45,174 nt of DNA from assembly GCA_027492635.1 (NCBI GenBank), contig JAPUEH010000022.1, positions 1 through 45,174 of the forward strand. Direction: 5' to 3'. Positions within the stretch are counted from its first letter, which is position 1, and each line of letters begins with the position of its first letter. The notes beneath the pieces were generated by a model that did not search any database, had not been told where the DNA came from, and was given only the letters and a program-made list of their open reading frames with translations. Below are positions 44,939 through 45,172 of this stretch, piece after piece. The stretch is from Candidatus Saccharimonadota bacterium (GTDB lineage: Bacteria; Patescibacteriota; Saccharimonadia; Saccharimonadales; Saccharimonadaceae). The position numbers and the translations under genes were made by a program.

Positions 44939-44958
44939 ATTTACAAATCTATTTATGC

Positions 44959-44964
44959 TAAAAT
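44959..44964 (+). promoter_or_regulatory. -10 box upstream of the tRNA-Gln locus
   Basis: TAAAAT 11 nt before the pseudo-tRNA. A transcript from here would read the remnant first and the intact tRNA 122 nt later. Confidence 0.4.
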
Positions 44965-44975
44965 AATCTAAGTTT

Positions 44976-45059
44976 TGGGGTGTCGCCAAGTGGTAAGATA
45001 CATGGCTGTTTGAGCGCTTCGCGCGAGTGAATCAAATGCGTCCATGATGGACCAAAATC
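44976..45059 (+). pseudogene. 5'-half tRNA-Gln remnant with a replaced anticodon loop
   Basis: 44976-45005 repeats the 5' half of the intact tRNA-Gln (acceptor 5' strand, D arm, CATGG anticodon stem) with two changes that break the D stem. CATGG (45001-45005) can still pair with CCATG (45042-45046), but the loop is a nested hairpin: TTTGA/TCAAA outside GCGC-TTC-GCGC. No T arm or 3' acceptor strand follows. The next 13 nt (45047-45059) are complementary to the anticodon arm of the intact tRNA-Gln (45126-45138). It is a partial duplicate or a regulatory RNA. Confidence 0.6.
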
Positions 45060-45097
45060 TTATCAGCTGGCGAAACCGCAATAGTTTCACAAAATAC

Positions 45098-45172
45098 TGG
45101 GGTGTCGCCAAGTGGTAAGGCACATGGTTTTGGTCCATGCATTCGGGGGTTCGAATCCCTCCACCCCAGCCA
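45098..45172 (+). tRNA. tRNA-Gln (anticodon TTG), CCA encoded
   Basis: Acceptor TGGGGTG (45098-45104) pairs with CACCCCA (45162-45168). The D arm is GCC-AAGTGGTAA-GGC. The anticodon stem CATGG/CCATG encloses loop TTTTGGT, giving anticodon TTG (reads CAA). The T arm has GGGGG-TTCGAAT-CCCTC. Discriminator G169 and CCA (45170-45172) follow. All helices are intact. Confidence 0.95.

Follow-up and report, generated by a model that had tools for sequence, protein, structure and literature searches.

Control of bacterial tRNA genes is usually discussed in terms of promoter strength, growth-rate control and decay, and several described systems bring a leader RNA or an inserted sequence together with a tRNA. 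For example, T-box riboswitches resemble the element analyzed here in being leader RNAs that contact a tRNA, with pairing to the anticodon included and structure switching possible, but T-boxes precede mRNAs, sense a tRNA in trans and contain the T-box sequence, whereas this element precedes the tRNA gene itself, contains a copy of part of that tRNA and pairs with 8-20 nt of its D-arm or anticodon arm. A T-box assignment was rejected, as neither a covariance-model nor a T-box sequence match above threshold was obtained for the window end and 16 loci, and all elements with readable context lie before a tRNA gene instead of an mRNA. Riboswitches and attenuators also combine mutually exclusive pairings with a conserved module beside the exchange strand, but here the controlled product would be a folded tRNA and not a terminator or a ribosome site. 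The tRNA-like operators, of which the E. coli thrS leader is an example, bind a synthetase and likewise place a partial tRNA mimic within a leader, but they are not known to carry an antisense of the tRNA, which this element does have.

Other comparisons come from sequences that insert into tRNA genes. Integrases use attachment sites in tRNA genes, where insertion into a loop is accompanied by rebuilding of the tRNA and leaves a fragment behind; the element shares the insertion in a tRNA loop, the rebuilt tRNA and the residual fragment, but its leftover is the 5' part, its insert is only about 100 bp and contains a covarying hairpin, and no integrase lies beside it. With the group I introns of tRNA anticodon loops, the element has in common the loop insertion and a guide across the joined ends, but it has no catalytic core and the tRNA is whole through its duplicated 5' part. 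Assignment to this class was rejected, since a group I core needs roughly 200 nt or more while the units found here are about 95-150 nt long and are without an Rfam match. When the window end and the 16 loci were scanned against Rfam at relaxed thresholds, only tRNA and sub-threshold matches were returned, so membership in a known RNA family was rejected as well. A description of this element was not found in the parts of the literature that were searched, and the text of PMC8040213, as searched, does not mention Saccharibacteria; we regard the RNA element as undescribed so far.

Organization of the locus upstream of tRNA-Gln(TTG)

The stretch of DNA analyzed here (the window, 45,174 nt from a Candidatus Saccharimonadota bacterium) ends in a tRNA-Gln gene with the anticodon UUG, which is preceded by the features listed in Table 1. 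A preliminary description, made from the sequence alone, had pointed to a 13-nt segment able to pair with the anticodon arm of this tRNA (45126-45138), located behind a 5'-half copy of the same tRNA in which a nested hairpin replaces the anticodon loop. Both observations hold: the pairing was recomputed with the same result, and the copy, which comprises tRNA-Gln nt 1 to ~30 (the acceptor 5' strand, D-arm and anticodon stem 5' strand), tracks the gene through ...ACATGG (45005) before the hairpin begins. The inverted copy that extends the antisense matches about 45100-45119 of tRNA-Gln.

Table 1. Features preceding and including the tRNA-Gln(TTG) gene at the end of the window.
Feature	Position	Strand	Observation
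Promoter -10-like box, TGCTAAAAT	44957..44965	+	Precedes 5' copy; matrix score 10.0
5' copy of tRNA-Gln	44976..45005	+	Direct repeat score 25; shuffled maximum 8.5
Module, CTGTTTGAGCGCTTCGCGCGAGTGAATCAAATGC, in place of the anticodon loop	45006..45039	+	Conserved CTGT, GAG and CGAG, plus covarying helix
Module helix strands	45014-45017 with 45021-45024	+	Covariation in 17 elements at tRNA-Gln and tRNA-Thr
Short sense copy of anticodon stem 3' side (GTCCATG)	45040..45046	+	Sequence reading; other elements have comparable sense copies
Antisense of the downstream tRNA's anticodon arm (ATGGACCAAAATC)	45047..45059	+	12 Watson-Crick pairs and one G-U; covariation across relatives
Imperfect inverted copy, D-arm/acceptor side	45060..45077	+	Extends antisense; predicted to fold with 5' copy in the isolated leader and with tRNA 5' half in the full precursor
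Remaining linker	45078..45097	+	Clear promoter not found by box matrix
Intact tRNA-Gln(TTG) gene	45098..45172	+	ARAGORN; Rfam RF00005, 61.4 bits

The position of the promoter bears on whether these features are transcribed together with the tRNA. Genes for tRNA-Gln without the element have a TGGTATAAT-like box immediately upstream, and a matrix built from these genes gave the window box its score against a maximum of 2.9 in the linker. Among 63 loci with the element, a mean score of 6.7 (62% above 6) was obtained for a box located before the 5' copy, while a box in the linker was rare (3.0, 21% above 6; shuffled sequence, 1.8 and 7%). Since the promoter-like box precedes the 5' copy and is seldom present in the linker, it is most likely, judging from these scores, that the element lies inside the primary transcript as part of a pre-tRNA. 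Long leaders of another kind lie between a promoter-like box and tRNA-Gln at four further loci (L074, L091, L053 and L099), and in these leaders an obvious tRNA copy and an Rfam match are both absent.

Predicted folding of the leader and precursor

Beyond the 13-nt segment, complementarity runs on through the imperfect inverted copy of the D-arm/acceptor side, so that the leader by itself is predicted to form a single long hairpin (-44.2 kcal/mol, z -4.45). In this hairpin the 5' copy is the pairing partner of both the antisense and the inverted D-arm copy. Folding of the full precursor, as the preliminary description had proposed, gave a different minimum-energy structure, in which the real anticodon arm is paired to the antisense and the real 3' acceptor strand to the 5' copy; this fold was better than any of 200 shuffles (z -4.0). 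Over many loci, pairing between leader and tRNA was preferred by a mean of 8.9 kcal/mol compared with 3.1 for shuffled leaders, these being predicted energies that omit the tertiary structure and modification of the tRNA. The real interaction energy was larger than all 20 shuffles at 52% of loci, and almost no leader-tRNA interaction was predicted for four single leaders (L029, L149, L170 and L026). By these predictions, the 8.9 kcal/mol preference is of a size that could permit competition between two states.

At the window locus alone, the complementarity is only moderately unlikely to arise by chance, as 10 of 2000 doublet-shuffled leaders scored as high against the whole tRNA. Comparison across loci was needed for this reason, and we take the comparative sequence evidence, not the window locus by itself, to be decisive on the reality of the complementarity.

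A conserved module and a fixed order of parts

Elements at different tRNA genes have the same order of parts: tRNA(1..k), the conserved module, a short sense copy, an antisense of the segment after k, a linker and the intact tRNA. The 5' copy breaks off at one of two places, the D-loop (after about nt 18-19) or the anticodon loop (about nt 30). The module follows in the form CTGTYYGAG-hairpin-CGAGT with an A-rich tail, and behind it come a short sense copy of the tRNA segment next in line and then the antisense. At its core, the antisense covers the tRNA segment directly after the break point (about nt 17-27 in D-loop types, 29-39 in Gln). This segment is missing from the 5' copy, so the real tRNA offers the antisense a longer match than the copy does.

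The module is conserved at CTGT, GAG and CGAG across 17 elements at tRNA-Gln and tRNA-Thr genes, and its invariant bases (CUGU, GAG and CG in the RNA) lie mostly outside the helix. Within the helix there are 18 double-changed cells compared with 3.8 in shuffles, and sliding the strands abolishes the pairing. Comparison of related pairs of elements shows that most of the 5' copy, module and antisense is conserved, while the linker and flanks are divergent. The acceptor part of the copy may decay (L263, L373 and L381). A second, degenerate sense copy is apparent by eye in the linkers of several Lys and Val elements, and in front of the tRNA the linker may contain a motif (about GYACNTTACA), which shows only a modest excess (6.5 vs 4.9 bits per sequence in shuffles).

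The antisense matches the tRNA that follows it

Over 13 different anticodon arms, the scores of antisenses with their own tRNAs were higher than in all 10,000 permutations. The antisense matched the wobble base of its own tRNA at 35 of 36 order-wide tRNA-Gln loci that have a 5' copy, compared with 13 of 29 chance hits without one; the search pattern left the wobble base free, and it fixed part of the loop for many loci, which biases antisense counts upward. In an 11-bp alignment of 23 distinct antisense-tRNA pairs, whose register was picked for best pairing so that its counts too are biased upward, 93.7% of cells are paired and 23 are double-changed compared with 7.1 in shuffles, and a one-base slide abolishes the pairing. 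Searches made without requiring an antisense are free of both biases. Copy and tRNA differ at four covered positions, and at each of these the antisense agrees with the tRNA and not with the copy. In L029, pairing is preserved as G-U at all three substitutions in the antisense. Chance complementarity was rejected by the permutations, the wobble-base control and the scans without an antisense requirement.

These comparisons also bear on two outcomes that would have weakened the preliminary description, namely relatives with the remnant and no complementary segment, and substitutions that break the pairing. Relatives that retain the 5' copy retain the complement, and differences in the tRNA are mirrored by differences in the antisense. 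Compensatory change in a conserved structure, which is expected of a structured leader acting in cis, is found in the module helix and in the antisense-tRNA pairing. The comparative data show a conserved element, in all likelihood an RNA, that is tied to the tRNA after it.

Distribution among tRNA genes and genomes

In the genome that contains the window, the parts are arranged in the same way at a second tRNA-Gln gene (CTG; L002), whose anticodon arm differs from that of tRNA-Gln(TTG) and is matched by the antisense in front of it. A tRNA-Met(CAT) gene (L195, G000:C7:29979) is preceded by a 5' copy, a D-loop insert and a perfect 15-nt antisense of the D-arm, while a tRNA-Leu(TAA) gene (L204, G000:C16:56546) has a weaker, degenerate version; further clear elements were not found among the approximately 34 tRNA genes examined. 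Two tRNA-like genes, for which ARAGORN assigned no anticodon, also lie close together on one contig of this genome (L207, G000:C23:14813 and 15094).

A search of 61 genomes found an upstream tRNA-Gln copy at about a dozen of 101 tRNA-Gln loci, and the order-wide pattern search had matches in 63 of 393 genomes. Most of these genomes are metagenome assemblies, and some that bear the element are single contigs (G184 and G223). A model of the 5' copy and hairpin in which the antisense was not required (R1) gave 11 strong hits in 295 genomes, all 11 of which have the antisense; R1 was built largely from the same loci that it recovered, L218 being the one new hit. A model of the module only (R2) led to tRNA-His, Thr, Arg and Lys genes in addition to Gln.

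A GTDB-wide scan for the junction of D-loop and module returned 95 stretches, 28 of which have an intact tRNA (Lys, Thr, Val, Met or His) shortly downstream. All 28 carry 8-17 nt of exact antisense to the D-arm of their own tRNA, located 37-72 nt upstream of it. Where named, they are labelled Saccharibacteria, Patescibacteria, unclassified bacterium or Nomurabacteria; five are not named. The sequence labelled Nomurabacteria in NCBI (L359, JAISBI010000026.1) is identical to one (L251) from genome G006 of the window's own family, so this label is doubtful. Matches in Sphingomonas and other phyla were set aside as chance hits to the D-loop pattern without an adjacent tRNA, and carriage by phage was rejected because none of six IMG/VR pattern hits adjoins a tRNA. 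This distribution points to Saccharibacteria as the group to which the window belongs.

The tRNAs preceded by the element are therefore Gln, Lys, Thr, His, Met, Val and Arg, and the window case is one instance of a widespread element. Regulation specific to tRNA-Gln, the only tRNA considered in the preliminary description, was rejected on this basis; the conserved module and the presence or absence of the element among close relatives also go beyond that description.

A cis-acting leader as the preferred explanation

We tentatively favor the view, at somewhat less than even confidence, that the element is a cis-acting structured leader within the tRNA precursor, in which strand exchange would gate folding or processing of the tRNA. 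While the leader is being transcribed, the antisense would pair with the adjacent tRNA copies. After emergence of the real tRNA, a toehold could be provided by those antisense bases that the 5' copy does not match, which are the complement of the anticodon loop or D-loop. Pairing there would strip the copies from the antisense and trap the tRNA arm in a long duplex, leaving the tRNA misfolded and its 5' processing hindered. If a ligand or protein bound to the conserved module, for instance, kept the local structure in place, the tRNA would fold and mature. In this way the element could decide whether the tRNA folds, and strand exchange would adjust the output of tRNA genes individually; the switching itself, along with its signal and direction, is inferred.

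Such a leader explains the fixed order, the match in cis, the constraint and the position of the promoter. Several considerations count against it: sporadic presence in close relatives is unusual for a needed regulator, the match between antisense and tRNA could come partly from recent copying instead of selection, and the energies are simplified predictions that show almost no interaction for the four single leaders named above. Of the three suggestions in the preliminary description (control of precursor folding or processing, an antisense decoy, or the scar of an inverted duplication), the first appears to be the best candidate. A scar alone is less likely, given the covarying module helix and a conserved core alongside diverging linkers.

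If a leader of this type exists, control would be exerted at the level of tRNA folding, by a leader that targets its own downstream tRNA. Saccharibacteria are tiny host-dependent bacteria, and such extra sequence is unexpected in a streamlined lineage with this lifestyle. It is possible, though we hold it to be doubtful, that the element represents a new class of bacterial regulatory RNA, consisting of tRNA genes with a switchable self-antisense in the precursor, in which tRNA copies and a sensor-like module restrain the antisense until a signal triggers invasion of the nascent tRNA.

Insertion, duplication and other less likely readings

The presence/absence pattern suggests a different reading, which we consider unlikely but worth weighing, that of a miniature insertion element targeting tRNA loops. 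Such an element would leave tRNA(1..k), bring the module and rebuild the tRNA through a second 5' copy, with the antisense copied from the target at insertion or serving as a guide to the site. At a tRNA-Thr(TGT) gene, two genomes that are 91.6% identical over 1 kb upstream (G020 and G307) differ by the clean presence or absence of exactly 103 bp, a polymorphism at a defined site as expected of an insertion element. The window locus is empty in two congeners (G001 and G002) that have the homologous upstream genes, and the element is present in G350 (L135), where the ATPase gene is also upstream. The use of different tRNAs in different species, the location of the insertions within tRNA loops, and the occurrence of tandem units (three in L357; two each in L144, L172 and L311) fit the same reading, as does L015, in which the upstream promoter region is duplicated too, in a perfect copy. 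Element arrays also reach contig ends (L305, L256/L313 and L252/L329), and elements that run into contig ends may break assemblies.

Against insertion, dispersed copies were not found, as all strong module hits with readable context precede an intact tRNA; gene neighborhoods, checked at the window and a few loci, contained no linked enzyme; and elements of one genome, tandem copies excepted, do not have near-identical linkers in common. Empty sites are explained equally well by precise loss through recombination between the direct tRNA repeats, and the history is compatible with such loss as much as with gain by insertion. If mobile, the element would be among the smallest known mobile elements, with arms matched to each target. 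Insertion accounts for the sporadic presence and the tandem copies, and the leader and insertion-element readings can be true simultaneously.

The tandem units, the inverted tRNA-derived copies and the promoter duplication in L015 would also suit a functionless relic left by successive rounds of slipped or snap-back duplication at tRNA genes, as would degenerate tRNA copies without a module, such as that in L072. We judge this improbable, since the module is not derived from a tRNA and yet is conserved across families with compensatory changes, and conservation of the core but not the flanks further strains a reading already strained by covariation.

It is also quite improbable that the leader acts in trans, as a small RNA that is freed by cleavage at the tRNA 5' end and serves as an inhibitor or sponge of mature tRNAs or tRNA fragments. 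Such cleavage would release an antisense-bearing leader of about 120 nt, and the anticodon loop of a mature tRNA is exposed; however, each antisense tracks its tRNA in cis, and the D-arm, which most non-Gln elements target, is buried in a folded tRNA.

A very small self-splicing or self-cleaving RNA, placed between tRNA(1..k) and the rest with an antisense spanning the joined ends like a group I internal guide, would suit the geometry and the invariant module bases, most of which lie outside the helix, but it is highly improbable given its size, which is too small for a group I core, the absence of matches to Rfam introns or ribozymes also when thresholds were relaxed, and the second copy, which already restores the tRNA and so makes splicing unneeded.

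Other inserts at tRNA-Gln loci

A second kind of insert occurs in the D-arm or anticodon arm of upstream tRNA-Gln copies at eight loci (L153, L154, L156, L161, L162, L164, L166 and L169), with the form TGARA-stem-YGCAAGGCCGGAAGCCGG...GACTGAGGCGGGGTCG...; it is unlike the short module, is usually followed by an antisense and is conserved across species. At three loci (L067, L113 and L038), degenerate full-length tRNA-Gln copies with inserts in the anticodon arm and T-arm precede an intact tRNA-Gln, and in L067 and L113 a 3' tRNA-Gln end (...CCCCAGCCA) lies just downstream of the intact gene, in an arrangement like a tRNA within a tRNA.
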